Part shown: positions 1,575 through 33,492 of the stretch, in pieces
How the letters are laid out: each line of letters starts with the position of its first letter
Numbering within the stretch: position 1 is the first letter of the stretch
The notes under the pieces: generated by a model
Told to the model about the DNA's origin: nothing
The model's input: the letters and a program-made list of their open reading frames with translations, nothing else
Database searches by the model: none
Made by a program: the position numbers and the translations under genes
Assembly: GCA_024742355.1 (NCBI GenBank)
Contig: JANSYM010000004.1
Span: forward strand, 124,001 to 188,000
DNA length: 64,000 bases
Direction of reading: 5' to 3'
From: Hyphomonadaceae bacterium
Lineage (GTDB): Bacteria > Pseudomonadota > Alphaproteobacteria > Caulobacterales > Hyphomonadaceae

Positions 1575-1825
1575 AGGCGGCGGTCCATACCAATCGATCA
1601 GTTGGGGCAGACTGGCACAGTCTGGGGCGAGCTCAACACCCGCAACTCGACTGCTGGCGAGGCTGTCATCGCCGAAATGATCCAATTAATGTGAGACCAC
1701 CGGATTATATGTGGTATCTGGCGCAAAAGTTGAATCGATCGCAGACCGTCAGGGCTTTTGTTTCAACTAAGTCGCGATGAACCAAGTCCTTCTTCGGGAG
1801 GATGCTCAGAGTGAGGGGATACCAG

Positions 1826-3082: not shown

Positions 3083-3091
3083 TGCAGATCG

Positions 3092-4276
3092 CTAGGTGAC
3101 GGGCTCCAGGTTTTTGGGCGCTTCCGTCGGATAGAGATTGCGTGGATCCGCGAGATCCGCGTAGCCACGGGCAAACTCAATCAGGGTATCAATCTTCGCA
3201 GGTGACACCAAAACCGGGTCTACGCCGAACGCTTTTACCCCGTGATTCCGCGCGGCGAGGTCGTTTTCATCGGGTTCGGACCGTGGAGACGCTATACGCA
3301 CCACTTCCGAATCTGATCGATCCGCAAACAGATTTGCCAGATCGTTGATGCGCATGCATTCCGCGATTTGGTTTACCACCTGTACGCGGTGATCGTCACG
3401 TTTTGGCGGCGATGCCAACGCGCCAACAATGCACCCGAGCACGTCTTCGATATGAATGAACGCGCGGGTCTGTTCGCCGGTGCCATAGACAGAAATCGGT
3501 TTACCGAGCGCCGCTTGCAGCGCGAACCGATTGAGGACCGTGCCGAAAGTCGGATCGTAGTCGAAGCGATTGGCCAAACGCGGATCCCGGCGGGTTTCTT
3601 CCGTCTCTGCGCCCCATACTGTCCCCTGGCACAGATCGGTGGCGCGCACACCGTGTTTGGCGGCGTAATAGGCGAGGCCAAGATGATCCATGGCTTTGGT
3701 GAGATGGTATTTCGAGACCGGATTGAACGGATGCAGAGACTCGTGTTCGGGCCCTAATTCTCCGGACGGGTCGACGCGGCGAATCCGCTGATAGCCTTCG
3801 GGGATTTCATATCCCAGTGTTTCATAACCATAGACGCCGATCGAACCGAGGTGGATGATGTGCGCATCGGTCTGCGTTTGGACCAGAGCCTCAAGCAAGT
3901 TTGTTGTCGCCATGAGATTGTTGCGTACGGTGAACAAACCGCCAGATGACGATTCCATGGAATAGGGGACCGAGCGTTGTTCGCCAAAATGAACCAATGC
4001 GTCTGGGCGGATGTCCTCGATGAGGCTGCAAATCGACTCGAACGACTCTGCCACGTCTATTTCATGCGAAGTGATCGGTGTGCCGCCTAACTCATGCCAG
4101 GCCTGAAGCCGCTCATCCAACGATGAGATCGGAACAAGGCTCTCGACGCCTAGCGCCTGACCAATCCGTCGTCGGGAGAAGTTATCGACAATGGACACAT
4201 GATGGCCAAGCCGAGCCAGGCGCAAGGCCGTCGGCCAACCGCAATAACCATCTCCTCCAATGACCATTACCCGCAT
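3092..4276 (-). CDS. sqdB: UDP-sulfoquinovose synthase (SqdB/SQD1 family)
   Basis: A 394-residue extended-SDR enzyme. The family makes UDP-sulfoquinovose from UDP-glucose and sulfite using bound NAD. The N-terminus MRVMVIGGDGYCGWPTAL contains the GxxGxxG nucleotide fold in the form typical of SQD1, followed by VDNFSRRRI. HFGEQRSVPYSM, the active-site YHLTK (Tyr/Lys), LCQGTVWG and TRAFIHIEDV are all diagnostic. The start at 4276 is set by the conserved N-terminus; the frame continues upstream to 4405 without conserved sequence. In phototrophs the product feeds sulfolipid synthesis. Here the neighbours are a glycosyltransferase and a sulfotransferase, and the acceptor could be a lipid or a surface polysaccharide. 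Confidence 0.93.
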   Translation of the reverse strand: MRVMVIGGDGYCGWPTALRLARLGHHVSIVDNFSRRRIGQALGVESLVPISSLDERLQAWHELGGTPITSHEIDVAESFESICSLIEDIRPDALVHFGEQRSVPYSMESSSGGLFTVRNNLMATTNLLEALVQTQTDAHIIHLGSIGVYGYETLGYEIPEGYQRIRRVDPSGELGPEHESLHPFNPVSKYHLTKAMDHLGLAYYAAKHGVRATDLCQGTVWGAETEETRRDPRLANRFDYDPTFGTVLNRFALQAALGKPISVYGTGEQTRAFIHIEDVLGCIVGALASPPKRDDHRVQVVNQIAECMRINDLANLFADRSDSEVVRIASPRSEPDENDLAARNHGVKAFGVDPVLVSPAKIDTLIEFARGYADLADPRNLYPTEAPKNLEPVT

Positions 4277-4570
4277 GGTTACAATTGCCTTGTGTTCGCA
4301 GTTTCCAAAGGAAAACACTCGCAAGAATCTTGCCATCCAGCCTGGTATTTCGTCCGGCCACTGCAAATGCTCACGCTGGCGGCGTCCCAACCTTATTGGC
4401 AACATGTTTCTGATCGCCCCGCAAGGTCAAATCACCCCATTTCGCGTTCGGATTGACAGACGGCGGCGCAAAGCCCTATCCGAAAGCCCGGGCGTTGATG
4501 TTGCTGGAGGGAGGATCGGCACCCGGTGCTGTGCTAAACGACCCTGCAAATCAAACGAACGGCTGGCTTC
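4277..4570. other. Intergenic gap between sqdB and the sulfotransferase gene
   Basis: A gap of about 290 bp between two divergent genes. I see no gene, RNA or clear promoter box in it. It must carry the promoters for sqdB (leftward) and the sulfotransferase (rightward). Confidence 0.5.
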
Positions 4571-5221
4571 ATGCTCTATGATCCAATCCGAAAATTCATT
4601 TTCATCCATATCTGGAAAACCGGTGGTGAATCGGTGGTTTCAGCGCTGCGCGATCATTGCCCGCTCTATTTTCGCAATCGCTATGTCAATAAAGCTATTC
4701 GTCTGGCTCCGGGCCCATCGTCAGCCTTGTTGGGATGGCGGGCCCGATTGGTGAGCGGTCAGCATTTCACCACGTCCGAGATCCGCCGCGAGATGCCGGC
4801 AGAGGCGTTCGATGATGCGTTCAAGTTCACTTTTGTTCGCAACCCGTGGGACTGGCAGGTCTCGAACTATGCATATGCGCTGCAGACACCCGCGCATGGC
4901 CAGCATGAGATTATTCGCAAGCTTGGCAGTTTCGACGCTTACATTCGCTATCAATATGAGCAGCGGGCGCCGACGCAGAGCAGTTTCATAGATGACGAGG
5001 CGGGCGAACAGCTGGTCGATTTTGTCGGTCGATTTGAGAATCTCGACGCTGATTTTCAGAGCGTGTGCGAGGCAATTGGTGTGCGCGCGGAGCTGCCCTT
5101 CCTGAACGCGTCGCAGCGTCGCCGGGATTGGCGAAGCTATTATTCGCACGAGACGCGGAAACTGGTGGAAGAGCTGTTCCAGAGCGACATTGAGCGGTTC
5201 GGTTATCGCTGGGACGCCTGA
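4571..5221 (+). CDS. Sulfotransferase family protein (PAPS-dependent)
   Basis: A 216-residue member of the sulfotransferase-2-like families, which transfer sulfate from PAPS to carbohydrate hydroxyls. The 5'-phosphosulfate loop is seen as FIHIWKTGGESV near residue 11 (K-x-GG form). The 3'-phosphate site is FTFVRNPWDWQVSNYAY near residue 95, with the conserved Arg and Ser. No signal peptide or membrane segment is evident, so it likely acts in the cytosol or at the inner face of the membrane. It is divergent from sqdB, which makes the activated sulfonated sugar. Together with the glycosyltransferase this suggests an anionic surface glycan (inference). The ribosome site is weak. Confidence 0.85.
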   Translation: MLYDPIRKFIFIHIWKTGGESVVSALRDHCPLYFRNRYVNKAIRLAPGPSSALLGWRARLVSGQHFTTSEIRREMPAEAFDDAFKFTFVRNPWDWQVSNYAYALQTPAHGQHEIIRKLGSFDAYIRYQYEQRAPTQSSFIDDEAGEQLVDFVGRFENLDADFQSVCEAIGVRAELPFLNASQRRRDWRSYYSHETRKLVEELFQSDIERFGYRWDA

Positions 5222-20400: not shown

Positions 20401-21288
20401 ATGAAACATCTGATCCCATCCCGACTGAGTTTACTGATCGCGGTATCTGAGTGTGGCAGCCTCACGGCCGCGGCTGACAGGTTGGGGCTGACGCAACCGG
20501 CCCTGAGCTACCGGCTGTCAAAGCTGGAAGACGCGCTCGGAAGTGACTTGTTCAACCGAACCGGGCGACGTCTGTCGTTAAACGCAGCCGGAGAACGGGC
20601 ATTGCACACCGCACAATCCATCGCGCGGGATGTTCAGCGTCTGCAAGATGACCTGAACAGCTTGGCCGGACAATCGACCGAGTGCCTGCGACTGGCGGCG
20701 CATTGCTTCACCACCTATCGCTGGCTGCCGGATGTGACCCGGCGTTTGCGGCACCGCTTTCCCAATCTCGATGTCCAGGTCAATGTGGATGCGACCCGAA
20801 CGCCGCAGGCCTTTCTCGACAGGCGGGAAGTTGAACTCGTTCTGACCGCATATCCGAACTCTTTTAACGAATATCAGACAAGGTTTCTGTTCGAAGATGA
20901 ACTCTTCGCCCTGGTTTCGCGGGATCATCCGCTGGCCGGGACGGGCGAGGTCACGCCGGCAGATTTGAGCGGCGAAAACGTTCTGGTCTATTCTGCGCAG
21001 GGATCGCCGGTCATCGACGAATTCATGCAGCCCGCCGGGTGTTCACCGCGGCTTCTGTCAGAAATGCCCTTAACCGAAGGCATGATTGAAATGGCGCGGG
21101 CCGGACTGGGTGTGGCAGTATTGGCGGGCTGGGTGATGAAGCGCCACGAAAAGACCGGAATGGTGCGCTTACGTCTTGGTCAAGCGGGTATGAAGCGGCG
21201 ATGGCATGCCGTGTATCACGCTTCAAACGACAATCCCGTGCTGCATGCCGTGATCGATGAATTGCGAGATTATCCGCGCGAGGATTGA
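20401..21288 (+). CDS. LysR-family transcriptional regulator
   Basis: A 295-residue regulator. The N-terminal winged helix-turn-helix (LLIAVSECGSLTAAADRLGL, LTQPALSYRLSKLEDALG) is followed by the inducer-binding domain (LAAHCFTTYRWLPDVTRRLR through GLGVAVLAGW). The arrangement resembles MetR-type members. It is transcribed away from a periplasmic MBL hydrolase gene with 120 bp between them, the usual LysR-target layout. The inducer is unknown. Confidence 0.93.
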   Translation: MKHLIPSRLSLLIAVSECGSLTAAADRLGLTQPALSYRLSKLEDALGSDLFNRTGRRLSLNAAGERALHTAQSIARDVQRLQDDLNSLAGQSTECLRLAAHCFTTYRWLPDVTRRLRHRFPNLDVQVNVDATRTPQAFLDRREVELVLTAYPNSFNEYQTRFLFEDELFALVSRDHPLAGTGEVTPADLSGENVLVYSAQGSPVIDEFMQPAGCSPRLLSEMPLTEGMIEMARAGLGVAVLAGWVMKRHEKTGMVRLRLGQAGMKRRWHAVYHASNDNPVLHAVIDELRDYPRED

Positions 21289-21317
21289 CCTCGAGGACCG
21301 AGCGCAGATTTTTGTTG

Positions 21318-21340
21318 TAATGGCATGGTAAATGCCATTA
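21318..21340. promoter_or_regulatory. Perfect inverted-repeat operator upstream of the DsbA-DUF1330-MBL operon
   Basis: Arms TAATGGCAT and ATGCCATTA are perfect inverted repeats separated by GGTAA, ending 29 bp before the start codon at 21370. An imperfect copy with the same 9-5-9 layout (TAATGGCAA, TTGGA, ATGTCAATA) lies at 29306-29328, in the promoter of the oppositely oriented GST-sulfatase-TetR-FGE operon. No U-run follows, so this is not a terminator. The TetR protein encoded at 25853-26479 is the most likely binder. Confidence 0.6.
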
Positions 21341-21369
21341 ATTGCGGTGTGGAGCAGCGGGAGGCCAGC

Positions 21370-22668
21370 ATGCGTTTGAAGACGTTCATTCAGAACAAGG
21401 CCGCGAAGAGTCTGTTCGGTGTGCAAAGGCGGGATGCCAAACGCCGCAAGTTCGAGCGGCAACGCGCGGCGAAGAATGCGCCGCATGTGGTCGACTACTA
21501 TCACGAGGCCAGCGATCCATACTCGCACCTGATGGTGCAGGTTCTGCCGGAATTCTGCAGGCGGTTTGATGTTGAGCTGAACGTCTATCTGGTGGCGCCG
21601 CCGCCAGATTGGGCCGCACCGGAGCGCGAAAAACTCGAAGCCTATGCGCGCACGGACGCGCTGCGGCTCGCCGCTCGCGCTGGCTTGAGTTTCGCTGATT
21701 CCGGCAAGCAGCCGTCCCGCGAAAAACTGGATGCGGCGAACGCTGCGCTGTCACAGGCGCTCGCAAGCGGGGCATTTCTGGAGCGTGCCGAGACAATCGG
21801 AACGCAGCTTTGGAGAGACCAAGACATCGAGCCTGTATCGGCGAGCACCAGCGGAAACGAGTCTTCGCTGACGGAAAGTACCCAGCGCCGCGACAGCATG
21901 GGCCATTATCTCGGCGCGACCCTCTTTTATGGCGGCGAGTGGTATTGGGGCGTCGATCGCCTGCATTACCTCGAAGCCCGCCTGACCCAACTGGGCGCAG
22001 CCAAAGGCGAACACTCCTCCGCAATTTTTGAGCCTCCGCTTGCGCCCGCTGCGGCTGCGCAGGCGCCTCTGAAAACTCGCCCCGAACTCCATTGGTACCT
22101 GTCATTTCGCAGCCCCTATACGGGCATTGTCGCCGATCGCGTCAAGGCGCTCGCGGATGCGTATGGCGCTGACCTGAAGCTGCGCTTCGTCTTGCCCATG
22201 GTGATGCGCGGGATGGAGATCCGGCGTTCGAAGAGTTCGTACATCATGAGTGATGTCGTTCGCGAAGCCGAGCGCCTCGGCATTCCGTTTGGCAATATCT
22301 GTGACCCGGTCGGCAAGCCGGTGGAGGATGGCTATGCGATCCTGCACAAGGCGATCGAGCTTGGGAAAGGGTTCGAGTTCGCGCACTCCTTCTTGAGCGG
22401 TGTCTGGAGCGAAGGGATCGATGCGGGAAGCAATAGCGGTCTCAAACAGATCACTGAACGCGCCGGGTTGGACTGGGATGAGATGAAACAATTGCGCGGT
22501 CAGGACCTCTGGCGCGAGACCGAGGACCGCAATCAGGCCGAGATGCTCAGCTATGATGTCTGGGGCGTGCCGAGTTTCCGCGTGGGTGATGTCGCCGCAT
22601 GGGGACAGGACAGGTTGTGGGTCATCGAAGACGCTTTGCGGGCGATGGCATCGAACGAGACCGCGTGA
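21370..22668 (+). CDS. Tandem thioredoxin-fold protein (DsbA/2-hydroxychromene-2-carboxylate isomerase family)
   Basis: A 432-residue protein with two DsbA-like domains. The first starts near VVDYYHEASDPYSHLMVQVLP. The second starts at LHWYLSFRSPYTGIVADRVK and ends with DVWGVPSFRVGD. The SFRSPYT segment with Ser at the active site, rather than CxxC, is that of kappa GST/HCCA isomerases, which use glutathione. A single-domain relative normally has about 200 residues, so this is a double-length form. The ATG at 21370 follows GGGAGG. It is the first gene of a unit with DUF1330 and an MBL hydrolase. A glutathione-dependent isomerase or transferase role is inferred. Confidence 0.75.
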   Translation: MRLKTFIQNKAAKSLFGVQRRDAKRRKFERQRAAKNAPHVVDYYHEASDPYSHLMVQVLPEFCRRFDVELNVYLVAPPPDWAAPEREKLEAYARTDALRLAARAGLSFADSGKQPSREKLDAANAALSQALASGAFLERAETIGTQLWRDQDIEPVSASTSGNESSLTESTQRRDSMGHYLGATLFYGGEWYWGVDRLHYLEARLTQLGAAKGEHSSAIFEPPLAPAAAAQAPLKTRPELHWYLSFRSPYTGIVADRVKALADAYGADLKLRFVLPMVMRGMEIRRSKSSYIMSDVVREAERLGIPFGNICDPVGKPVEDGYAILHKAIELGKGFEFAHSFLSGVWSEGIDAGSNSGLKQITERAGLDWDEMKQLRGQDLWRETEDRNQAEMLSYDVWGVPSFRVGDVAAWGQDRLWVIEDALRAMASNETA

Positions 22669-22686
22669 ACACAGGAGGAGATTGAA

Positions 22687-23151
22687 ATGGACGTCATTAA
22701 TGAGGTCAGGCCGAGCGATCCGGCGCAAATCAAAGGCATGACGGAACAGGGGCCGGACGGGCCGATCTTCATGGTCAACTTGCTCAAGTTCAAAGACAAG
22801 GCCGAGTATGAAGACGGCCGCGAAACCGATCTTACCGGGCGTCAGGCCTATGGACTCTACGGCGCCGCCGTCGCGGGCATCCTCCCTGATTTTGGCGGGC
22901 GATTGTTCTACATGTCAGACGTCACCTTTCTGTCGCTCGGGCAGGTCGAAGATCTCTGGGACGAAGTCGCAATTGCGGCCTATCCCGATCGCGCCTCCTT
23001 GCTCCGCATGTCCATGTCCGAGGCGTGGCAGGCCGCAAGCGTGCACCGCACCGCTGGGCTCGCCGGGCAGCTTAATATCGAGACGGTAATGCCAAAGGCG
23101 GCGCAGGGGCTGCCATGGATGGAGATGTTTCTGAAGGAGATGAGCGCATGA
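22687..23151 (+). CDS. DUF1330-type small protein
   Basis: A 154-residue soluble protein with the ferredoxin-like DUF1330/dimeric alpha-beta-barrel pattern (PIFMVNLLKFKDKAEYEDG and, later, YPDRASLLRMSMSEAWQ). Its biochemical function is unknown. It starts 18 bp after the DsbA-like gene, behind an AGGAGG, and its stop overlaps the next start (ATGA). The three genes are therefore translated as one unit. Confidence 0.75.
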   Translation: MDVINEVRPSDPAQIKGMTEQGPDGPIFMVNLLKFKDKAEYEDGRETDLTGRQAYGLYGAAVAGILPDFGGRLFYMSDVTFLSLGQVEDLWDEVAIAAYPDRASLLRMSMSEAWQAASVHRTAGLAGQLNIETVMPKAAQGLPWMEMFLKEMSA

Positions 23152-24230
23152 TCTGGCTCAAGCGAGGATTAATCGGTCTGCTCGGTTTGGCGGTGATCGC
23201 CATAATCGGCTTCAATCTTTTCAAGACACAAATCGCGGAGCGCGCCTTTCAGCGCGCGATCGATCAAAACGCGGGCGTCGATCGCAGCGCCGCGCTGCCG
23301 GACGGCTTGCATGTCTATCTTTGCGGTACCGGATCACCGATGCCTGATGCGACGCGCGCCGGGCCCTGCCTGGGCGTTCTGGCGGGGGACCGGGCATATG
23401 TTTTTGATGTCGGGTCTGGCGGGACGCGAAACCTTGGCGCGATGGGGTTTCCGCTCGCGAAATTGGATACGGTTTACCTAACGCATCTGCACTCGGACCA
23501 TATTGACGGTCTGGGAGAGCTTCTGACGCTTGGCTGGATTGGCGGGAACCGGGCAGAGCCCATGCCCGTCAGAGGGCCAACCGGGACCGAAGGGGTCGTC
23601 AACGGCTTCAACGCGGCGTATCGCCTCGACAGTACGTACCGCATTGCGCATCACGGCACAGAGGTGGCCAATCCGAACGGATTTGGCGGCGCGCCGGATG
23701 AGATCACGATCCCTGCGGGGCCAGGCGGTCAATTGGTCGTATTTGAAGACGATGATCTCAAGATCACCGCGATCCGCGTCGACCATGCGCCGATCGACCC
23801 GGCATTCGGCTATCGGATTGACTATAAGGATCGCTCGATCTCGATCAGCGGCGATACGATCTATCAACCGCGCTTTGTCGCGGCCTCCGAAGGCGTCGAT
23901 CTGATGCTGCACGAGGCGCTGAGCAAGGGCATGGTCCAGACGATCGGCGCGGCGCTCGAGGAACGCGGGTTGCGAAACCAGGCGACCATCTTTGAGGATA
24001 TCCTGGACTACCACACCGATCCGGAAGAGGCCGCCAAAGCGGCGCAAGAGGCGGGTGTTGACCACCTTGTCTATTATCACATCGTGCCGCAGCTTCCGGT
24101 GAAACTGCTGGAAACAGTGTTTCTCGGCGACTCCAAGTCGATCTTTGATGGCAAGATCACCGTCGGCGAGGATGGTATGATCTTCACCCTGCCGGCCGGG
24201 TCAGACAAGATCGTGAAATCGAAAAGCTGA
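23148..24230 (+). CDS. Membrane-anchored metallo-beta-lactamase-fold hydrolase (RNase Z/arylsulfatase-like)
   Basis: A 360-residue protein with one N-terminal membrane segment (GLIGLLGLAVIAIIGFNLF). It has an MBL core of the RNase Z/alkylsulfatase-like long form: LCGTGSPMPDATRAGPC, FDVGSGGTRN, then the metal motif THLHSDHIDGL. GDTIYQPRFV (metal Asp) and HIVPQLP follow. The catalytic domain would face the periplasm. The ATG at 23148 overlaps the upstream stop. It faces the sulfatase/FGE operon tail to tail. A role in hydrolysing an ester linked to the same substrate is possible but inferred. Confidence 0.8.
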   Translation: MIWLKRGLIGLLGLAVIAIIGFNLFKTQIAERAFQRAIDQNAGVDRSAALPDGLHVYLCGTGSPMPDATRAGPCLGVLAGDRAYVFDVGSGGTRNLGAMGFPLAKLDTVYLTHLHSDHIDGLGELLTLGWIGGNRAEPMPVRGPTGTEGVVNGFNAAYRLDSTYRIAHHGTEVANPNGFGGAPDEITIPAGPGGQLVVFEDDDLKITAIRVDHAPIDPAFGYRIDYKDRSISISGDTIYQPRFVAASEGVDLMLHEALSKGMVQTIGAALEERGLRNQATIFEDILDYHTDPEEAAKAAQEAGVDHLVYYHIVPQLPVKLLETVFLGDSKSIFDGKITVGEDGMIFTLPAGSDKIVKSKS

Positions 24231-24251
24231 GCGGGACTTCGGCGGGCTGCC

Positions 24252-24878
24252 TTATTGCGCGGCCCGCCGACGACTGAACCAGGTCATGCCGCGCAGACCG
24301 AGCCAACCGATGAGGATGAGCAGCAAGGCCAGCGTCACCCGGACATGGACGAACGTGATGGTCGGCCGAGTGATGAACACTTCGGTATGGTTCAGCGCGC
24401 CGAACTTGTAGCCTTCGCCTGCTTTCATGGCGGGTTCTAGCGTCATCTCGATCATGTCGCGCAAAGAGCGATACCGCACCACGGCGACACGATCGACCTC
24501 GGTGCCATAGTCGCCCAGCATCAATCCGACGCGATTTGACAAGAAGACAGGGTGGCTGGCGCGCTTGAACAGAAGGGGCATCACGACGCCCGCATAGGCG
24601 CGGTCCGATGCTTCGGCTTCCGGACCGTCTTTCAGATTCTCCAGGTTCACGGCGTAGAATTCCCGGCCATCATCGCGCGGAATCATGTCCTCGATATTGG
24701 CGAGGAAACGGCGTTCGCTGTCATCCGCGCTCTCATAGGTCTGTCGGATCTGTTCCAGCAGGCGTTCGCCTTCTTCGATGGAGATCGGTTTGCCAGCGCC
24801 GCCATACCAGGCACTGAACCAGACGAACAAAGCAGTTAGGAAAACAACCCAGGCAATCTTCAGTCTGGTAAGTGTCAT
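24252..24878 (-). CDS. Two-transmembrane protein of unknown function
   Basis: A 208-residue protein I do not recognise. Two hydrophobic segments flank a soluble domain of about 140 residues: residues 8-28 (IAWVVFLTALFVWFSAWYGG) and near the C-terminus (VRVTLALLLILIGWLGLRGM). The loop is charged (ESADDSERRFLANIEDMIP) and would face the periplasm. The C-terminus is Arg-rich (FSRRRAAQ). It is the last gene of the leftward operon, 76 bp after the FGE gene. The start at 24878 is chosen because the hydrophobic segment begins just after it. Confidence 0.65.
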   Translation of the reverse strand: MTLTRLKIAWVVFLTALFVWFSAWYGGAGKPISIEEGERLLEQIRQTYESADDSERRFLANIEDMIPRDDGREFYAVNLENLKDGPEAEASDRAYAGVVMPLLFKRASHPVFLSNRVGLMLGDYGTEVDRVAVVRYRSLRDMIEMTLEPAMKAGEGYKFGALNHTEVFITRPTITFVHVRVTLALLLILIGWLGLRGMTWFSRRRAAQ

Positions 24879-24954
24879 GGTGGCCGTCTTTCGCAATGAG
24901 GGAATATAATTGCGTTTAGCGTGCCAATAGTTTGAGATCAAGCATGGCGCCGGA

Positions 24955-25863
24955 TCAGGGCGGTGTGTCCCGGATAATCCGAAAGCCGATATGGTTTGAC
25001 GAAAAATCGACTTCCTGCGGATGTCGGGCCGCCGGGCGATAGCGTCGGCAGAAATTGTCCGCGCACAAGAAAGAGCCGCCCTTCATCGTCTGCGTGCCGG
25101 GCCCGTAGGGCGTGTCGGTCAGTTCCCAGACATTGCCGATCATGTCGTGCAGGCCCAGGCGATCCGCGTCGAAACATCCAACCGGCGCGACCCCCGAATA
25201 TCCATCCGCGGCTGTATCTGCGACCGGGAAGATGCCTTGCCATGTATTCGCGCGTGGGCCGTCTTCGCCATAGGCGCCGGAAACACTATCAGACGGGTCA
25301 GGAAGCCCCAGCGACGCCGCGTATTCCCACTCGACCTCGCTTGGCAACCGTCCGCCCGCCCATTCGGCATAGGCCTCAGCATCGCGTTTGGACACATGCA
25401 CCACAGGCTCTCGCATGCGCTCGTCAATCGAACTGTCATCGCCTTCCGGTGCACGCCAGTTTGCGGATGCTTCGAGACCCCATGGCGCGCTTGTCTCCGC
25501 GCGTTGACCCGGGTGGATGAATACAGCGGACCCCGCCCCTTCGCGCCCATCGAGAACGCCTTGCTCGGCGTCCGTGACATAGCCTGTCGCGTCAACAAAT
25601 GTCGCAAATTGCGCGTTTGTGACTTCGTGTTTTTGAATCCAGAACCCGTCAACATGAAGGCTGAGGGTCGGTCGCTCTTCGGGATAGACGGGCTGCGCCC
25701 CCTTGGTGAACTGACCCGCAGGTATCTTGACAAATGCGCCGAGGTCAGAGGGCGCCAGGATGCACGTTTTGGCGGGATCCTGCCCATTGCGTTCGGGTGT
25801 TCCGCACGATGCCGCTGTGGCCACAACCGCAAGGGTTAGAATTGCCCGCGTGCTAATCCGCAT
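24955..25863 (-). CDS. Formylglycine-generating enzyme (FGE/SUMF1 family), predicted lipoprotein
   Basis: A 302-residue enzyme. The family converts a Cys in sulfatases to formylglycine. It starts with a lipoprotein signal (LAVVATAASCGTP, Cys 20), unlike many cytosolic bacterial FGEs. The FGE fold is seen as FVKIPAGQFTKGAQ, KHEVTNAQFATFVDATGY, GRLPSEVEWEYAA and GNVWELTDTPYG. The catalytic pair is retained: Cys 267 and Cys 272 in GGSFLCADNFCRRYRPAAR, with the C-terminal NHIGFRIIRD. It overlaps the TetR gene by 11 bp and shares an operon with a Cys-type arylsulfatase, its likely client. Confidence 0.92.
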   Translation of the reverse strand: MRISTRAILTLAVVATAASCGTPERNGQDPAKTCILAPSDLGAFVKIPAGQFTKGAQPVYPEERPTLSLHVDGFWIQKHEVTNAQFATFVDATGYVTDAEQGVLDGREGAGSAVFIHPGQRAETSAPWGLEASANWRAPEGDDSSIDERMREPVVHVSKRDAEAYAEWAGGRLPSEVEWEYAASLGLPDPSDSVSGAYGEDGPRANTWQGIFPVADTAADGYSGVAPVGCFDADRLGLHDMIGNVWELTDTPYGPGTQTMKGGSFLCADNFCRRYRPAARHPQEVDFSSNHIGFRIIRDTPP

Positions 25864-26479
25864 CGACGTTCGCGATCAGACCCTGGATCACCAATCGGAG
25901 GGACGCTTTGGCGCTTTCCGCAGATCGATTCTGGTCCTGTCTCAATTGCCGCCAGGTCGAAAAATCCAAGGTCGCCTCAATCGCGCCGAACAGTTCGCGA
26001 TCGGAGGTCACGGCCTTCGGCAAAAGGGATTTGAGTGATGACCGGGCGAGCTTCGTGTCGCGCTGATACTGCTCGCCGAGAAAATCGGATTGAAACCGTC
26101 GGAGCGCCATGCATACCCGCATCGGGAAGACCATTTCGTACACTTCTGCGCGCCGGTCGATACACTCCATCAGGCGGTCGCGCCACGTCGTCGCCTCATA
26201 GGGGGCGACGATCTTGGGCATCACCGCTTCAGTCAGCTCAGCGGTCATTTCGTCATAGATGCTGTCCATGTCCTCGAAATGGCGAAACACGGTGCGCAGG
26301 CCGACATTGGCCCGTTCGGCGACACTGACGGCACTGGGTGACATATGACCTTCTGAGATCAGATCAAACATGGCTTCGATGATGCGGCGACGACTGCGAT
26401 CGCTGCGCTGCCTGCGTCCATCCTCGGTGCCGGCCTCAAGAGCGGGCCAGGGGTTTTTCTTTTTGACCGCTGTACTCAC
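25853..26479 (-). CDS. TetR-family transcriptional regulator
   Basis: A 208-residue regulator with an N-terminal helix-turn-helix (RSRRRIIEAMFDLISEG, then SVAERANVGLRTVFRHFEDM) and a helical ligand domain. The start is taken at GTG 26479 with GGGGA upstream; a TTG at 26515 is also open. It lies between the sulfatase gene and FGE, overlapping FGE. Two copies of a 23-bp inverted repeat (21318-21340 and 29306-29328) stand at the heads of the two facing operons here. They are its likely operators. Repression relieved by a pathway compound is inferred. Confidence 0.87.
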   Translation of the reverse strand: MSTAVKKKNPWPALEAGTEDGRRQRSDRSRRRIIEAMFDLISEGHMSPSAVSVAERANVGLRTVFRHFEDMDSIYDEMTAELTEAVMPKIVAPYEATTWRDRLMECIDRRAEVYEMVFPMRVCMALRRFQSDFLGEQYQRDTKLARSSLKSLLPKAVTSDRELFGAIEATLDFSTWRQLRQDQNRSAESAKASLRLVIQGLIANVDAD

Positions 26480-26562
26480 GAGCGTCCCCAATGTTGGTGG
26501 CTGTCTGACCGGCAATATACTGCCGACAGCGCAGAAAGGAATAACGGGCGTTGTCGCATCGA

Positions 26563-28236
26563 TCAGTTTTCCCAGATAATGTACTCGTCGCTGTCGTCGA
26601 CGGATTCGACGATCGTTTTGTCGATCGCGATTGGACTGGCAATCTTGTGCGGGTAGAGCGGTCCAACTGACTCCGCGTGATGGGCGTCGAGCAGAGCTTG
26701 CAGTTCAGTGGCTTTCTCGGGTCGCGTTTGCGCCAGATTGTTCTGTTCGGTCGGATCGTCGGCAAGGTTGAACAGCCAGGACTTGTTCTGGCGTCCATCG
26801 ACCTGCAATTTCCAATCACCGGCGCGCACAACGCGATAGGCGCCGGATGACCAGAAGATTGCGTCATTGGGGCGTTGGATCACCCCCTCTCCGGTGGCTT
26901 CAGGCAAAATGTTCTGACCATCAATGATGCGATCGCCTGGCAATTCCGCACCAGCGGCGGCGGCCAGGGTCGGGAACAAATCGATATGTGCGACCGGCGT
27001 ATCGATGACGGTTCCCGGCGCGATCCGATCCGGCCATTTGACGAACATGGGCACACGAATCCCGCCCTCGAACAACGTGATCTTCCAGCCGCGATAGGGT
27101 GCGTTGACTTCTGGCAGCCCAATATAGCCGGCACCGCCATTGTCGCTGCTCAGCACAATGATTGTATTGTCCGCGAGGCCCTCTGCCTCCAGCTTGTCCA
27201 TCACCCGGCCGACGCTTCGGTCGAGGGCATGGATCATCGCCGCATAGACGCGCATCCGTTCCGGCCGCAGGTCGCCGACGGCCTCATAGTCAGCGCGTGT
27301 CGCCTGCAGGGGCGTGTGCGGTCCCCAATGCGCGAGGTACAGGAAAAAGGGCCGATTCTTGTTCGCCTCGATGACGTTCAGGCTCTCATCCGTCCACCAA
27401 TCGGTCAGGTAGCCGCCGGGTTCGAACGCTTCCCCGCCATTGAACGTGGCGGCATAGGACAGCGCCGCCCAGAGAAATTTGTCGATCGGGTCAAAGTCGA
27501 GCTTGGCATTGACCACATCCGGATCATCTTCCGGCAGATAGAGCCCGCTTTCCATAAACAGACTTTCATCGAATCCTTGCGCATTCGGCAGAAAGTCCGG
27601 GTGCCGGCCGAGGTGCCACTTGCCGATATGGACGGTATGATAGTCCTGTTCCTGAAGCAGCTCAGCAATGGTGATTTCTGAGCCAGGCAGTCCCTGGTCG
27701 TCATACCCCAATGCCCCATCTGTGATGTCTCGATTGGGGACGATTTTCGGCAATACGCCGCGATCCATGCCATTGGAAATCGTGGCGATGACCTGGCTCA
27801 TGCCGTCCGGCGTTGGGGTGAATTCAAATCCCGTTCGGGTCGGATAGCGTCCAGTCATCAGCATCGCCCGTGACGGCGCGCATGTACCGGTGCCGGAATA
27901 GGCCTGCGAGTAAATCGCGCCGCCAGCGGCAAGACGATCAATATTCGGTGTCGGCACCAGCCCATTCGCGACGCCGCCGCCAAATGTCGAAATGTCATTA
28001 TAGCCGAGATCATCGAGCAGAATGAACACGATATTCGGCGCTCGCTCCGACGCTGGCATGGTGGCTACAGCCGGGCCCTGTTGCCAGGTGACAGGCTGGT
28101 ACGGCGCCGCATCAATCTTGTTCGCGGCCGCGCGATTCAGCACCAGGTGAGAGAGCAGCGCCGTTCGATTGAACCAGGCGAGAAGACCGGCGCCAAACAC
28201 GATGACCAGCAGGCCGATAATCAGTTTTTTCCACAT
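26563..28236 (-). CDS. Arylsulfatase (family S1, Cys-type), membrane-anchored
   Basis: A 557-residue sulfatase. An uncleaved N-terminal membrane segment (LIIGLLVIVFGAGLLAWF) anchors it to the periplasmic face. The alkaline-phosphatase-like fold is seen as NIVFILLDDLGYNDI (metal Asp pair) and the modification motif C119-A-P-S-R in GTGTCAPSRAMLMTGRYP. HIGKWHLG, AHWGPHTPLQ and LSSDNGGAG follow. The Cys must be converted to formylglycine, which the operon's FGE can do. It follows the GST gene by 11 bp. The substrate is unknown; the S1 family includes enzymes for aromatic, steroid and polysaccharide sulfate esters. Confidence 0.94.
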   Translation of the reverse strand: MWKKLIIGLLVIVFGAGLLAWFNRTALLSHLVLNRAAANKIDAAPYQPVTWQQGPAVATMPASERAPNIVFILLDDLGYNDISTFGGGVANGLVPTPNIDRLAAGGAIYSQAYSGTGTCAPSRAMLMTGRYPTRTGFEFTPTPDGMSQVIATISNGMDRGVLPKIVPNRDITDGALGYDDQGLPGSEITIAELLQEQDYHTVHIGKWHLGRHPDFLPNAQGFDESLFMESGLYLPEDDPDVVNAKLDFDPIDKFLWAALSYAATFNGGEAFEPGGYLTDWWTDESLNVIEANKNRPFFLYLAHWGPHTPLQATRADYEAVGDLRPERMRVYAAMIHALDRSVGRVMDKLEAEGLADNTIIVLSSDNGGAGYIGLPEVNAPYRGWKITLFEGGIRVPMFVKWPDRIAPGTVIDTPVAHIDLFPTLAAAAGAELPGDRIIDGQNILPEATGEGVIQRPNDAIFWSSGAYRVVRAGDWKLQVDGRQNKSWLFNLADDPTEQNNLAQTRPEKATELQALLDAHHAESVGPLYPHKIASPIAIDKTIVESVDDSDEYIIWEN

Positions 28237-28247
28237 GTCTTCAGCCT

Positions 28248-29279
28248 CTAAGCAAACAATTGTTCGCAGCCAGTGCCGTCTATAAGGGCAGCGACCGCGC
28301 CGCGTTCATTGTCGGACAGACCGCTATAATCATCGCGCAGCCATTGCAGGCATTTCACCTGATATTTGAACACCGGCTGGGTCCATGGTCGCCCATCAAT
28401 CTCGGTCTCGAAGTTGGTTTCGCCAGCCATCACCGCTTTTGCATTGGCGACCATAGCGGGCGCATAAGTGCGGCCAATCTCTGCGAGCAATGGCGCCAGC
28501 GCCTCGCTTGCCTCTTCCGCTGTGAACCAGTCATCGTCCGTCGGTTGAACCCCCGACAGGTCTTCCATCAAGTCGACCCAGGCTCGTACGCGTTGCGATA
28601 CCTGATTGGTGATGGCTGCTGAGGTGGGCTCGACAATGGCCAGCTGGGTCAACTGTCCGTAAAGCGCGAAATCGGCGGACGATGGACGGCTGCCAAGCAC
28701 GAATCCCTTGCGCGCGATCAGCGTGTCGAGGCAATCGATCAAGCGCGCATAGGAGCTTTCAATCGTCTCTGCCGTGACATCGTTCGAGCCGACCACATAC
28801 AAGCGGTCGATCTGGCGTTTTGCAAAATCGGCGGCAGCCTTGTCGGCCATGTCTTTTGGCGCGGTGTTCATGCCCCAGTAAACGAGCAAAGGCGCGGCAT
28901 TTTTCCAGTCGGCTTCGTGCGCCCAGCGAAAATGGAACATGGCCTTGGTCAGCCATTCATCGGCATAGTCTTCGATCAGCTCATTGAGGAAGCGCAAGAC
29001 CGGATCGGTTGGAATGACTGAGCGGTCGGAATAGTCTTTCTCAAGGCGGCGAATGATCGGTGTGGAATCCGTCACCGGAACCAGCGCGCCATCGTCGCCA
29101 TCTGGAAAGAAGAATGTCGGCAGAAGCCGGACTTTCGGCTCTGGATAGCCCTCCGGAATGTTTCCATTGCCCCAATATACCGAGTAGGGCAGGTGCCGAT
29201 ATCTGAGCACGCCGAGCATTTTTCGTGTGTACGGCGAACCAGCTGCGCCGGTGAGTTCTAGCCGAGCCATTTTTGTCAT
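28248..29279 (-). CDS. Glutathione S-transferase-like protein, long form
   Basis: A 343-residue protein with an N-terminal thioredoxin-fold GST domain. SPYTRKMLGVLRYRHLPY is the glutathione-site helix, and LLPTFFF and VTDSTPIIRRLE (cis-Pro/Ser region) follow. The helical C-terminal domain contains GSRPSSADFALYGQL. About 100 extra residues (roughly 240-343, ending in CLQWLRDDYSGLSDNERG) extend past the usual GST end. The ATG at 29279 follows an excellent GGAGGAATTTC. It is the first gene of the operon with sulfatase, TetR, FGE and the membrane protein. Glutathione conjugation or isomerisation of the pathway compound is inferred. Confidence 0.85.
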   Translation of the reverse strand: MTKMARLELTGAAGSPYTRKMLGVLRYRHLPYSVYWGNGNIPEGYPEPKVRLLPTFFFPDGDDGALVPVTDSTPIIRRLEKDYSDRSVIPTDPVLRFLNELIEDYADEWLTKAMFHFRWAHEADWKNAAPLLVYWGMNTAPKDMADKAAADFAKRQIDRLYVVGSNDVTAETIESSYARLIDCLDTLIARKGFVLGSRPSSADFALYGQLTQLAIVEPTSAAITNQVSQRVRAWVDLMEDLSGVQPTDDDWFTAEEASEALAPLLAEIGRTYAPAMVANAKAVMAGETNFETEIDGRPWTQPVFKYQVKCLQWLRDDYSGLSDNERGAVAALIDGTGCEQLFA

Positions 29280-29298
29280 GAAATTCCTCCAGGCCGGA

Positions 29299-29328
29299 AC
29301 AGTACTAATGGCAATTGGAATGTCAATA
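29299..29328 (-). promoter_or_regulatory. Promoter with embedded TetR-type operator for the GST-sulfatase-FGE operon
   Basis: On the minus strand a consensus -35 TTGACA (29326-29321) is followed after 16 bp by a weak -10 TACTGT (29304-29299). The 23-bp dyad at 29306-29328 (TAATGGCAA, TTGGA, ATGTCAATA) covers the -35 and most of the spacer. It is an imperfect copy of the perfect dyad at 21318-21340. A repressor bound here would block RNA polymerase directly. Confidence 0.55.
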
Positions 29329-29353: not shown

Positions 29354-30283
29354 CTATTTCAGCAGAAGTATACGCGCCAGATTGGCGGCCACCCGCGCGG
29401 TGACACTGTCCTGATCGAAGCGTGGGCAAACCTCGACAATGTCAGCCAGGGGCAGGGCACCAGGCCGGGTTCGAGCGTGGCTCAAGACATGATCGACGAG
29501 CACTTCAATTGTCGCCAGCGACACACCTCGCGCTGCGGGCGCACTGACCCCGGGAGCGACGGCATGCGGCAGCACGTCCATGTCGATCGTCAGATAGACA
29601 AGATCATTGCGGGCGAACATCGCATCGATTTCCTGTTCGGCGCGGGCTGTATCATGCGCCAATTCATGATCGTGGATGGCGGTGACGCCGAACTTCGCTG
29701 CGCGCTCAATCAGCGCCGCCGTGTTGGCTTCCTCAGCGATGCCGAGGCAGAGATAATCGAAACGATCCGGATCGAGCGCGTGGATCTGGTAGAAGGGTGT
29801 GCCTGAACTCGGACCCGCATCGCCGATGGCCCTCAGATCCAGATGCGCATCCAGGTTGATGATCCCGATACGCTTGTCGGGCCATTTCTGTTTCAAGCCG
29901 GAATAGCTGCCGAAAGCGGTTTCGTGCCCGCCGCCGAGCACGACCAGTCGATCCAGGCTGTCCATCGCTTTCGCAATTTGCTCCGACAACATGACTTGAC
30001 CGGTCTCTAGATCGTCGTCTTCCACGGCGATGGTTCCAAGGTCGGTAAAACCTGATGCCGCTTCCGGCGCGGCGAGGTTGCGCATAGCCTGCCGGATCGC
30101 GTCAGGAGCCTCTTTAGCGCCCACGCGTCCCTTGTTCCGTGCGACGCCCGCATCGCAGGCAAATCCGATCAGGCCGCGCGTCGTGTCCGCTTGCTGAAGA
30201 TGATGCAGGCGCACGGCGCCAGGACCGTCCTCAGGGTCTGTCCGTCCGGTCCAGGGTTCTGGGGGCTGGAAGCTTACGCTCAT
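29354..30283 (-). CDS. hutG: Formimidoylglutamase (HutG, ureohydrolase family)
   Basis: A 309-residue Mn-dependent arginase-fold enzyme, the last enzyme of histidine degradation in this operon, giving glutamate and formamide. Metal motifs are GGGHETAFG, INLDAHLDLR and TIDMDVLPHAVAPGVSAPAA. The N-terminal GFACDAGVARNKGRVGAKEAP is characteristic of HutG. It starts 3 bp after hutU. The family split between HutG and agmatinase is resolved by the hut context. Confidence 0.95.
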   Translation of the reverse strand: MSVSFQPPEPWTGRTDPEDGPGAVRLHHLQQADTTRGLIGFACDAGVARNKGRVGAKEAPDAIRQAMRNLAAPEAASGFTDLGTIAVEDDDLETGQVMLSEQIAKAMDSLDRLVVLGGGHETAFGSYSGLKQKWPDKRIGIINLDAHLDLRAIGDAGPSSGTPFYQIHALDPDRFDYLCLGIAEEANTAALIERAAKFGVTAIHDHELAHDTARAEQEIDAMFARNDLVYLTIDMDVLPHAVAPGVSAPAARGVSLATIEVLVDHVLSHARTRPGALPLADIVEVCPRFDQDSVTARVAANLARILLLK

Positions 30284-30286
30284 CGA

Positions 30287-31954
30287 TCAGAGAATTCCCG
30301 GCAGGTTGAGGTCGTGCTCGCGGGCGCAGTCCACCGCGAGATCATAGCCAGCATCGGCATGCCGCATGACGCCGGTGGCCGGATCGTTCCACAGGACTCG
30401 CGCAATGCGCCGGTCGGCGTCTTCGGTGCCGTCACAGCAAATCACCATGCCGGAATGCTGAGAGAAGCCCATGCCAACGCCGCCGCCATGATGCAGGCTG
30501 ACCCAGGTCGCGCCGCTCGCCGTGTTGAGCAAGGCGTTGAGCAGGGGCCAGTCCGATACAGCATCCGACCCATCGCGCATCGACTCGGTCTCGCGATTGG
30601 GCGAGGCGACGGAACCGCTGTCCAGGTGATCGCGCCCGATCACAACTGGCGCTGAGAGTTCTCCGCTGCGCACCATTTCGTTGAACGCCAGACCAAGCTT
30701 GTCGCGCAGCCCGAGACCGACCCAGCAGATCCGCGCGGGCAGGCCCTGGAAACTGATCCGATCGCGCGCCATGTCGAGCCATTTGTGCAAATGCGGATCA
30801 TCCGGGATCAGCTCTTTCACCTTGGCGTCGGTCTTGTAGATGTCTTCCGGGTCTCCCGACAACGCGCACCACCGGAACGGGCCAACGCCCTTACAGAAGA
30901 GCGGGCGGATATAGGCGGGCACAAATCCGGGAAATGCGAATGCCTCCTCGTAGCCCTCATCCTTGGCGACCTGGCGGATATTGTTGCCATAATCGAAGGT
31001 CGGGACGCCGTCCTGCCAGAATTTGACCATCGCCTCGACATGGACCTTCATCGATGCGCGCGCCGCTGCCTCAACCTGCTTCGGGGCGCTCTGAATCTTT
31101 TCGCGCCATTCCGCAACGCTCCAGCCTTGCGGCAGATAGCCGTTGATCGGGTCATGCGCGGAGGTTTGGTCAGTGACCATGTCGGGGCGCACGCCGCGGG
31201 CATGGATGTCTTCAAACACATCTGCCGCGTTGGCGATCAGTCCGACGGACTTGGCTTCTCCATTGGCCGTCCACCGCTCGATCATCTCCAGCGCTTCGTC
31301 GAGGGAATGTGTCTTTTCGTCGAGATATTTCGTGCGCAGGCGGAAATCCGCGCGTGTTTCGTCGCACTCTACGGCGAGGCAGCATGCCCCGGCCATGACG
31401 GCAGCGAGCGGCTGAGCGCCGCCCATGCCGCCAAGTCCACCCGTCAGGATCCAGCGTCCGGTGAGGTCGCCGGCATAATGCTGGCGCCCGGCTTCAACGA
31501 ACGTCTCATAAGTGCCCTGAACGATGCCTTGCGTGCCGATATAAATCCATGACCCTGCGGTCATTTGCCCGTACATGGCGAGACCCTTCTGATCGAGTTC
31601 ATTGAAGTGATCCCAATTGGCCCAGTTCGGCACGAGATTGGAATTGGCGATCAGGACGCGCGGAGCATCCGCATGTGTCTTGAAGACGCCGACGGGCTTG
31701 CCGGATTGAACCAGAAGCGTCTCGTCGGTTTCCAGCTCTTTGAGCGACGCCACGATCTGGTCAAACGCGGTCCAGTTGCGCGCAGCGCGGCCGATGCCAC
31801 CATAGACGACCAGCTCGCTTGGGTTTTCAGCGACGTCCGGATGGAGGTTGTTCATCAACATCCGCAGGGGCGCTTCCGTCGCCCAGCTTTTCGCTGTCAG
31901 TTCGGGTCCGGTGGGGGGCAGGATTTCGCGGTCGTTTCTGAGCCGGTTATTCAT
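30287..31954 (-). CDS. hutU: Urocanate hydratase
   Basis: A 555-residue NAD-dependent enzyme that converts urocanate to imidazolonepropionate. Its length and sequence are typical: [16 protein letters not shown] and [11 protein letters not shown] near the start, [20 protein letters not shown], the NAD-loop [13 protein letters not shown], and the C-terminal [15 protein letters not shown]. The start overlaps the hutH stop (ATGA), indicating coupled translation. Confidence 0.98.
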
Positions 31955-33492
31955 GAGACGGACTCCTCGAGGGCTGAGTTATCGAAGTTGAGATTTGCAA
32001 TCAGGTCGCCAGATCGGATGAGGCTGGCCGCAAGCGCGAGGTCAGGGGCGAGATAGCGATCTCGATCCAATGGTGGAATCTCGCGCTCGACTGTCATCAT
32101 CGCTTCACGCAAGACCGGACTGGTCTGAAGCGGTGCACGAAAGCGAATGCCCTCGATGCCACAGAGCAGTTCGATACCGAGGATCTGAAACAGATTCTGC
32201 GCCATGCGGTCGAGGCGGCGCGCACCATGCGCAGCCATGCTGACATGGTCTTCCTGATTGGCGGAGGTTGGGGTGGAATCTGTGGAGCATGGATTGGCGA
32301 GATGCTTGTTCTCGCTCATCAGGGCCGCGCTCGTCACCTCGGCGATCATGAAGCCGGAATTCAATCCGGGGTCTTTGGCCAGGAACGCTGGGAGGTCGAA
32401 GCTCAGGCTTGGGTCTACGAGCAGCGCGATACGACGCTGCGAGATGGCGCCGATTTCGGCGATGGCGAGCGCAATCATGTCGGCGGCAAAGGCAACCGGT
32501 TCGGCGTGGAAATTACCGCCAGATACGATCCGGTCCTCGCTGGTCAGGACCAGCGGATTGTCCGTGGCGGCATTGGCTTCGCGGATCAGGCTGGTGGCGG
32601 CAAAGCCCAGCATGTCCATCGCCGCGCCAACGACTTGCGGGTGGCATCGGATGCAATACGGATCCTGAACCCTGGTATCATCGTCGCGATGCGAATCCCG
32701 GATTTCGCTACCATCCAGAAGTGCGCGCATCGTTGCGGCGGCGGATATCTGTCCAGGATGACCGCGCAGGGTGTGGATCTCTGGCAGTAGGGGCGATGTC
32801 GAGGCCATCGCAGCGTCGATGGACAAGGTACAAGTAAGCAGCGAGCTGCGCGCCGCACGGTTGGCTTCAAACAGGCCTGCCAGCGCATGCGCCGTCGAAA
32901 ACTGCGTGCCATTGATGAGTGCGAGGCCTTCCTTTGGGCCTAGAGTAATCGGAGCGAGCCCCGCTGCGCTCAAGGCGTCCGCGCCGGGCATCGTATTGCC
33001 ACCAAAGACGGCTTCGCCTTCGCCGATCATCACCGCCGCCATATGCGCTAGCGGGGCGAGGTCGCCTGAGGCCCCGACGGATCCTTGCGCTGGCACAACC
33101 GGGACCACGTCCGCGGCGATCATCGCTTCGAGCAGGGCCACCAATTCAGGGCGTACGCCCGAAGCGCCTCGGCCGAGCGAGATCAATTTGAGGGCCATCA
33201 TCAGCCGCACGATCGATTTCGGGCTGGCCTCCCCGACGCCGCAGCAATGGGACAGGATGAGGTTGCGTTGAAGCGTTTGCGTATCTTCGGGCGGGATCTG
33301 AACCGAGGCAAGTTTGCCGAAGCCTGTATTGACCCCATAGACGGGCTGATCGCCTTGGGCCGCCTTCTCGATGCGCGCCGCGGATGCCGCGATCAGCGGG
33401 CGGGTTTCCGGGGCCAGACGCGCCGGCACGTTGGTGCGCCAAAACTGCTCGAGCTGTTCGAGACTTACCTTGCCAGGTATTAGAGTCAGCAT
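31951..33492 (-). CDS. hutH: Histidine ammonia-lyase
   Basis: A 513-residue enzyme that deaminates histidine to urocanate. The self-formed MIO cofactor comes from Ala141-Ser142-Gly143 in [16 protein letters not shown]. The family Tyr loop [11 protein letters not shown] and the [16 protein letters not shown] C-terminal helix are present. It overlaps hutI by 7 bp and hutU by 4 bp in the hutIHUG transcription order. Confidence 0.98.

Follow-up and report, generated by a model that had tools for sequence, protein, structure and literature searches.

Is the inverted repeat that precedes two converging, sulfatase-related operons in a Hyphomonadaceae genome the operator of one local repressor, and how many genes would that repressor control? 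The locus lies in a 64,000-nucleotide stretch (the window) of Hyphomonadaceae bacterium assembly GCA_024742355.1 (contig JANSYM010000004.1, positions 124,001 to 188,000), which corresponds to C8:124001-188000 of a 3.46-Mb assembly in 18 contigs (G000). An initial annotation, made from the DNA letters alone, had proposed that a dyad of two 9-bp half-sites around a 5-bp spacer stands before both operons, that a TetR-type regulator encoded inside the second operon binds it, and that eight genes form a two-operon regulon. These genes encode a "DsbA-like" protein, a DUF1330-like protein and a metallo-beta-lactamase-fold (MBL) hydrolase on one side, and a glutathione S-transferase (GST), a Cys-type sulfatase (A7), the TetR-type regulator, a formylglycine-generating enzyme (FGE) and a protein with two transmembrane helices (two-TM protein) on the other. 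Comparison among genomes strongly supports regulation of this kind, and points to a conserved alphaproteobacterial TetR repressor regulon larger than the one proposed. We put the probability at about 0.8 that the repressor encoded at 25853-26479 and a paralog in a second gene cluster both use the dyad as their operator, in a regulon that would serve the breakdown of sulfated molecules.

Dyad sites in the window and in the genome

At up to three mismatches, the dyad TAATGGCAT-N5-ATGCCATTA matched the window at two places and no others, and 100 dinucleotide shuffles of the window gave a mean of 0.00 matches. Both sites, the perfect O1 (21318-21340) and O2 with three mismatches (29306-29328), lay where the initial annotation had placed them, and the claimed overlap of O2 with a -35 box was borne out by a minus-strand TTGACA (29326-29321) inside the dyad. 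Further sites had been missed, among them a weaker one, O3 (24907-24929), whose orthologs were found in two close relatives, at L097:11203 and L098:2436. The predicted boxes at O1 are a -35 TTGTAA (21315-21320) and a -10 ATTAAT (21337-21342), with the 16-bp spacer inside the operator. The left half of O2 includes TTGACA, which is a perfect -35 box and may account for the "imperfection" of this dyad. Both layouts would be consistent with steric repression.

In the whole genome, the dyad had five sites at up to three mismatches and none for the reversed motif, and all five fell into two clusters. Three lay beyond the window but on its contig, close to the contig end (352275, 359680, which is perfect, and 367748), about 207 kb away, and mark the second cluster (L005/L006, G000:C8:351609-369512). 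Its genes were identified by reading, by Pfam on ten proteins and by tblastn with the window proteins, and include a TetR gene whose product is 68% identical to that of the window. Because of these sites and homologs, the window gene set appears to share its operator with a second cluster to which it is partly paralogous. The shared operator, its specificity and the placement of the TetR gene inside the regulon stood, whereas "two operons" and "eight genes" proved too small, since there are five operators at up to three mismatches plus one weaker, a second cluster and a second TetR.

For searches beyond the original dyad we used a relaxed pattern, TWWTGRCAYN5RTGYCAWWA, with the reversed motif as control. 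In the own genome, all four of its sites at up to one mismatch were in the two clusters, as were two of the six sites with two mismatches, O3 being one of these. A further two-mismatch site, at window position 4669, was taken as chance, as it falls inside a coding sequence read as sulfotransferase-like. This gene is the last of a group read as glycosyltransferase-, epimerase- and sulfotransferase-like (window 1802-5221).

Association of the operator with TetR across genomes

The proposed link between dyad and TetR rests on association across genomes, in which palindromic sites recur at the promoters of target genes and of TetR genes. TetR homologs (E <= 1e-20) were found in 45 of 101 related genomes. 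Alone, the plain dyad at up to three mismatches was too noisy for this comparison (56/101 genomes matched; 22/101 for the reversed motif), and the exact relaxed pattern was used for this reason. It occurred in 29 of the 101 genomes, that is, in 28/45 TetR-positive versus 1/56 TetR-negative genomes (Fisher p 4e-12, kinship ignored). The association held outside the genus (11/24 versus 1/48; p 8e-6, kinship ignored) as well as inside it (17/21 versus 0/8), and reversing the exact pattern left a single site, in one of the 101 genomes.

All TetR matches of these genomes were fetched with their surroundings, giving 48 TetR loci. Sites were present in 24/48, 37/48 and 45/48 of them at up to zero, one and two mismatches, respectively (26, 51 and 90 sites), with none for the reversed pattern. 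Every one of the 51 sites at up to one mismatch started within 151 bp upstream of a marker-gene tblastn match, and none lay inside a match. Their targets were DsbA-like genes (15), AtsA-type sulfatases (11), GSTs (8), dehalogenase-type hydrolases (8) and TetR genes (7), sites between divergent genes being counted twice; the seven sites directly upstream of TetR genes were from distant relatives. Genome-wide, 37 exact sites were found, 33 of which lay beside marker genes. Twenty-seven were in fetched loci (26 in TetR loci), and the other ten were fetched separately, with six of them beside marker genes (L153, L154, L157, L158, L159 and L160). A position weight matrix built on 27 training sites from the same loci found 107 sites scoring at least 12, against 3 shuffled and 0 reversed, which is not independent evidence.

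Two tests were untrained, namely the dyad as first described and held-out loci from other orders. Across 57 loci (0.99 Mb; L147, which overlaps L137, was dropped from counts), the first-described dyad had 56 sites at up to four mismatches, whereas 60 shuffled half-sites gave 1.5 sites on average and never more than 7. With one duplicate locus included, the dyad had 57 sites and the reversed motif one. In a survey of 289 genomes across the class, TetR homologs (E <= 1e-25) were found in 12, and ten of these lay outside the order with 35-48% identity. All ten held-out loci carried a site at up to two mismatches, with 14 sites versus 1 for the reversed motif. The dyad was not scattered over many unrelated loci, in the own genome or in relatives. 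Plasmid records gave no match with the TetR protein as query.

Gene content was also conserved. The 48 TetR loci contained sulfatase A7 (37), MBL (30), DUF1330-like (30), DsbA-like (26), FGE (23), AtsA-type sulfatase (23), GST (21), two-TM (15) and dehalogenase-type (15) genes, counts that are lower bounds because contig ends truncate many of the loci. A7 together with at least two of the DsbA-like, DUF1330-like and MBL genes occurred in 26 of the 46 TetR loci other than the own genome's two, so the expected co-occurrence of the two operons was found in relatives. Where the orientation of DsbA-like and A7 genes could be compared (22 relatives), 19 were convergent, two same-strand and one divergent. 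The window itself, whose two operons are convergent, is excluded from these 22; it has a second DsbA match at 60910.

In the fetched loci, sites at up to two mismatches lay upstream of 19/26 DsbA-like genes, and within 260 bp upstream of 18/21 GST homologs under the relaxed pattern (window included). TTGACA was held in the operator-like site of 11 of these 18 GST homologs, and the TTG immediately 5' of TAATG(G/A)CA was kept in the seven closest of nine aligned DsbA-like promoters. The promoter alignment took in 14/21 GST and 9/26 DsbA-like genes, with the later count covering all; distances were measured to the edge of the tblastn match rather than to a proven start codon.

Several observations weigh against a simple repressor-operator pairing. 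No exact relaxed site was found in 17/45 TetR-positive genomes, and three of the 48 TetR loci had no site at up to two mismatches (L099, on a 3.8-kb contig, L128 and L139). An upstream site was absent from 7/26 DsbA-like and 3/21 GST genes, some of which lie inside operons, while O3 is weak and only 9/24 two-TM genes in fetched loci had an upstream site at up to two mismatches. In the own genome the relaxed pattern at up to three mismatches gave 76 sites versus 26 reversed, so that weaker sites there are indistinguishable from noise. Four of the 37 exact sites were not beside recognizable marker genes (L152, L155, L156 and L161), the L161 site being inside a coding sequence of the sole TetR-negative genome with a site, and the neighbor at L157 and L158 is a GST of only 27-28% identity. 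Many loci used for counting also served to derive the relaxed pattern. At L128, L133, L179 and L180 the TetR gene had no other marker gene nearby; the repressor is therefore not tied to sulfatases everywhere, and its targets vary.

A separate observation concerns L155:174-2066, where an exact operator stands at the start of a 630-residue open reading frame with a membrane-anchor-like segment, a possible further member of the regulon.

Proteins of the two clusters and a proposed route

The features of both clusters are collected in Table 1. The gene calls of the initial annotation were essentially right, and several can now be refined.

Table 1. Operators and genes of the window (positions within the window) and gene content of the second cluster
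Feature	Position	Strand	Description
LysR gene	20401..21288		Just upstream of O1
O1 operator	21318..21340		Perfect 9-5-9 dyad TAATGGCAT-GGTAA-ATGCCATTA, 0 mismatches
Kappa-GST/HCCA-isomerase-type protein ("DsbA-like")	21370..22668	+	C-terminal DSBA domain, no CxxC, FRSPY motif
DUF1330-like protein, dimeric alpha-beta barrel type	22687..23151	+	Pfam 20.4 bits
MBL-fold hydrolase	23148..24230	+	Membrane-anchor-like N-terminal segment, HLHSDH motif
Two-TM protein	24252..24878	-	Putative DUF1330-like dimeric alpha-beta-barrel domain (residues ~60-170) between two hydrophobic helices
O3 operator, weaker	24907..24929		4 mismatches to perfect dyad, 2 to relaxed pattern; 28 bp before two-TM gene
FGE	24955..25863	-	Active-site pair SFLCADNFC, both cysteines; Pfam FGE-sulfatase 211 bits
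TetR-type regulator	25853..26479	-	Proposed dyad binder; recognition-helix region strongly conserved
Cys-type S1 sulfatase "A7"	26563..28236	-	CAPSR, membrane-anchor-like N-terminal segment
GST-family protein	28248..29279	-	GST_N_3 and GST_C_2
O2 operator	29306..29328		Imperfect dyad TAATGGCAA-TTGGA-ATGTCAATA, 3 mismatches
Histidine utilization genes	29354..33492	-	Directly beyond the regulon; hutG (NCBIfam), then hutU-/hutH-like (by reading)
Second cluster, first part			GST; site; ADH_N_2/zinc-dehydrogenase-type oxidoreductase ("PTGR-like"), DUF2855, EF-hand-like (by reading), DJ-1/PfpI, AtsA-type sulfatase
Second cluster, middle			GST and protein without family name; perfect site; haloalkane-dehalogenase-type hydrolase, DUF1330-like (69% identical to the window's)
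Second cluster, last part			Two-TM (64%), sulfatase (70% to the window's), AMP/CoA ligase, TonB-dependent receptor with third site at start, TetR

The window TetR had no Pfam match at E 0.001, and its other matches were weak, namely NCBIfam FabR (22 bits, cut-off 151) and KstR (20 bits, cut-off 280) over residues 22-82, and TetR-family structures in the PDB at E 6e-4 and 7e-4. Among 47 aligned homologs, the helix-turn-helix region was more conserved (0.74) than the C-terminal rest (0.52). Relatives were confirmed at eight loci, in five Henriciella metagenome-assembled genomes (66-83% identity) and in contigs labeled Hyphomonas (84%), Crocinitomicaceae (63%) and Parvibaculum (46%); several of these contigs also belong to the 101-genome set. 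The window itself most probably derives from Henriciella or a close relative. The Crocinitomicaceae-labeled contig (L040) carries a Henriciella-like TetR/sulfatase locus and possibly comes from a misassigned metagenome bin.

A Cys-sulfatase with its own FGE had been claimed, and the motifs agreed with this. The C-x-P-x-R signature, as CAPSR, is present in A7 and in both second-cluster sulfatases, and the two sulfatases scanned, one from each cluster, scored 188 and 198 bits against Pfam Sulfatase. The CADNFC of the FGE aligns to CHRSYC of 2aii, whose cysteines we take to be catalytic. An FGE with both cysteines and CAPSR in three sulfatases therefore point to a matched Cys-sulfatase/FGE system. 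The FGE N-terminus reads as export-like (LAVVATAASC), and the enzyme may act outside the cytoplasm with the anchored sulfatase. The best solved relatives of A7 are kappa-carrageenan S1 sulfatases (6prm, E 8e-72); the second cluster's AtsA-type sulfatase most resembles a Pseudomonas arylsulfatase (1hdh, E 2e-100).

The "DsbA-like" protein carries a DSBA domain at its C-terminal end. A motif check found no CxxC active site of DsbA in it, and because of its FRSPY motif and a best PDB match to 2-hydroxychromene-2-carboxylate (HCCA) isomerase (2imd, E 2e-9), it is assigned to the kappa-GST/HCCA-isomerase type. The DUF1330-like protein scores below the Pfam curated cut-off (20.4 versus 23 bits). Nearest to the MBL protein among solved structures is the MBL-fold "Arysulfatase" 8gyg (E 3e-16), with PNGM-1 close behind and then RNase Z; a PDB search with the window GST gave no match.

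For the two-TM protein, the two hydrophobic helices were upheld and the description could be sharpened to a predicted membrane-anchored DUF1330-like domain. Its family, found in 19/101 related genomes (E <= 1e-10), aligned to that of the window's DUF1330-like protein with an hhalign probability of 97.4 (E 9e-12, 106 columns), and the structural model (pLDDT 88) has a beta-alpha-beta-beta-alpha-beta domain flanked by hydrophobic helices. Foldseek returned 3dca as the best match (E 6e-7), and also olivetolic acid cyclase and methylmuconolactone isomerase, all dimeric alpha-beta-barrel proteins. A Pfam DUF1330 match was found in none of the 19 family members, and the family had no meaningful Pfam match.

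The second-cluster hydrolase is, judged from its sequence, a predicted haloalkane dehalogenase. It aligned to 4mj3 over nearly its full length (E 3e-71), and the DWG nucleophile motif was kept in 22/22 homologs aligned from these loci, two of the rows being repeats (L042 = L103 and L122 = L160), while the second halide-binding position (HG(N/E/Q)P) varied. Genes read as Crp/Fnr-like and MerR-like flank this cluster.

Together, these families suggest the following route. The TetR repressor would silence promoters in the two clusters, at least five of them and probably six, by occupying their -35 and -10 boxes or the DNA between these. Release by a ligand, which is probably a product or the substrate with its sulfate, would switch the promoters on. 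A sulfated, lipophilic small molecule would be taken up by the TonB-dependent receptor and lose its sulfate at the inner membrane or in the periplasm to Cys-sulfatases, anchored or exported, that the FGE encoded with them would mature. Later steps may fall to the glutathione-dependent enzymes, the DUF1330-type dimeric alpha-beta-barrel proteins (one of them membrane-anchored), the MBL hydrolase, the haloalkane-dehalogenase-type hydrolase and the oxidoreductase, with activation by the CoA ligase. The initial guess of a steroid or aryl substrate received no specific support in this analysis.

Sulfatases of two families that share their operator with a genuine FGE would also suit a sulfate-starvation regulon, in which any sulfate ester is desulfated for its sulfur and the remaining genes process the leftovers. 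We consider this unlikely, as the regulator is a TetR encoded locally, with an operator of its own, and not one that governs sulfur metabolism globally, and the CoA ligase and TonB receptor suggest carbon use.

A more specific version of the catabolic route, which we regard as a long shot, is a dedicated pathway for natural compounds bearing halogens as well as sulfate, for instance chlorosulfolipids, or terpenes or phenols with both kinds of substituent. The unlike sulfatases with their own FGE would remove the sulfates, the haloalkane dehalogenase and GSTs the halogens, the oxidoreductase and the alpha-beta-barrel pair would process the product, and the CoA ligase would feed it into beta-oxidation. 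We know of no described pathway for halogenated sulfated compounds of this kind.

Even less likely is polysaccharide utilization, with the sulfatases trimming a sulfated algal polysaccharide such as carrageenan. The kinship of A7 to carrageenan sulfatases and the TonB receptor speak for it, but glycoside hydrolases, polysaccharide lyases and SusD were found in 0/20 Pfam-scanned proteins (eight of the window set, two flanking and ten of the second cluster). This substrate is less favored because no carbohydrate-active enzyme was among them, and the set held none of the hallmarks of a polysaccharide utilization locus (glycoside hydrolase, lyase, SusCD pair). The glutathione enzymes, haloalkane-dehalogenase-type hydrolase and CoA ligase are likewise ill-suited to sugar catabolism, and the similarity of the AtsA-type sulfatase to an arylsulfatase also argues against it.

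Dimeric TetR proteins generally bind symmetric dyads such as this 9-5-9 repeat. Least probable of all is that the TetR is a passenger and that the LysR, Crp/Fnr-like or MerR-like regulator encoded beside the clusters binds the dyad, since homologs of each occurred at 1/48 TetR loci, only in the own genome, whereas the operator tracks TetR across genomes and into other orders.

With this comparison, a guess on two operons becomes a regulon in Alphaproteobacteria that has comparative support and whose operator, regulator and genes can be named, and the operator can serve as a search handle for collecting the genes of the pathway. DUF1330-like proteins, including a membrane-anchored form missed by Pfam, are placed in a regulatory context as well. 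Should the sulfatases and the haloalkane dehalogenase share one substrate, the regulon would suggest that bacteria turn over marine natural products that are sulfated and perhaps halogenated, and the halogenated-sulfate pathway, if true, would supply these haloalkane dehalogenases with a function in nature.

Comparison with known systems

TetR-family catabolic repressors such as KstR, which controls steroid degradation, are dimeric and bind palindromic operators over promoters of regulons split over several transcription units. The regulon described here is alike in its split organization and palindromic operators, and the window TetR weakly matches FabR and KstR in NCBIfam; however, its scores are far under the cut-offs (22 and 20 versus 151 and 280 bits). 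To our knowledge, its operator and target genes are unlike those of known TetR-family catabolic repressors. The second-cluster hydrolase resembles the haloalkane dehalogenases 4mj3, 6f9o and 5esr, presumably of subfamily I, but differs from them in lying under the operator of a sulfatase regulon, its activity being predicted. A published description of such a gene set was not found among the open-licence papers listed, which does not prove its absence, and the regulon looks like a real, so far undescribed degradation network.

In the marine bacterium Zobellia, catabolism of a sulfated compound, carrageenan, is likewise reported to be encoded by a complex regulon (PMC5698469). Here, in contrast, the regulator is of the TetR type and the 20 scanned proteins include no carbohydrate-active enzyme. 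The nearest described system among the papers listed is bsd I, a cluster for bile salts in Caenibius tardaugens (PMC12882949). The palindromes there differ in sequence from our dyad, and the arylsulfatase gene that was upregulated in the same study (EGO55_09215) lies outside the bsd I locus-tag range (EGO55_16295-16335). Nevertheless, bsd I shares with the present regulon a TetR gene inside a catabolic cluster and palindromes proposed as the operators of its product.

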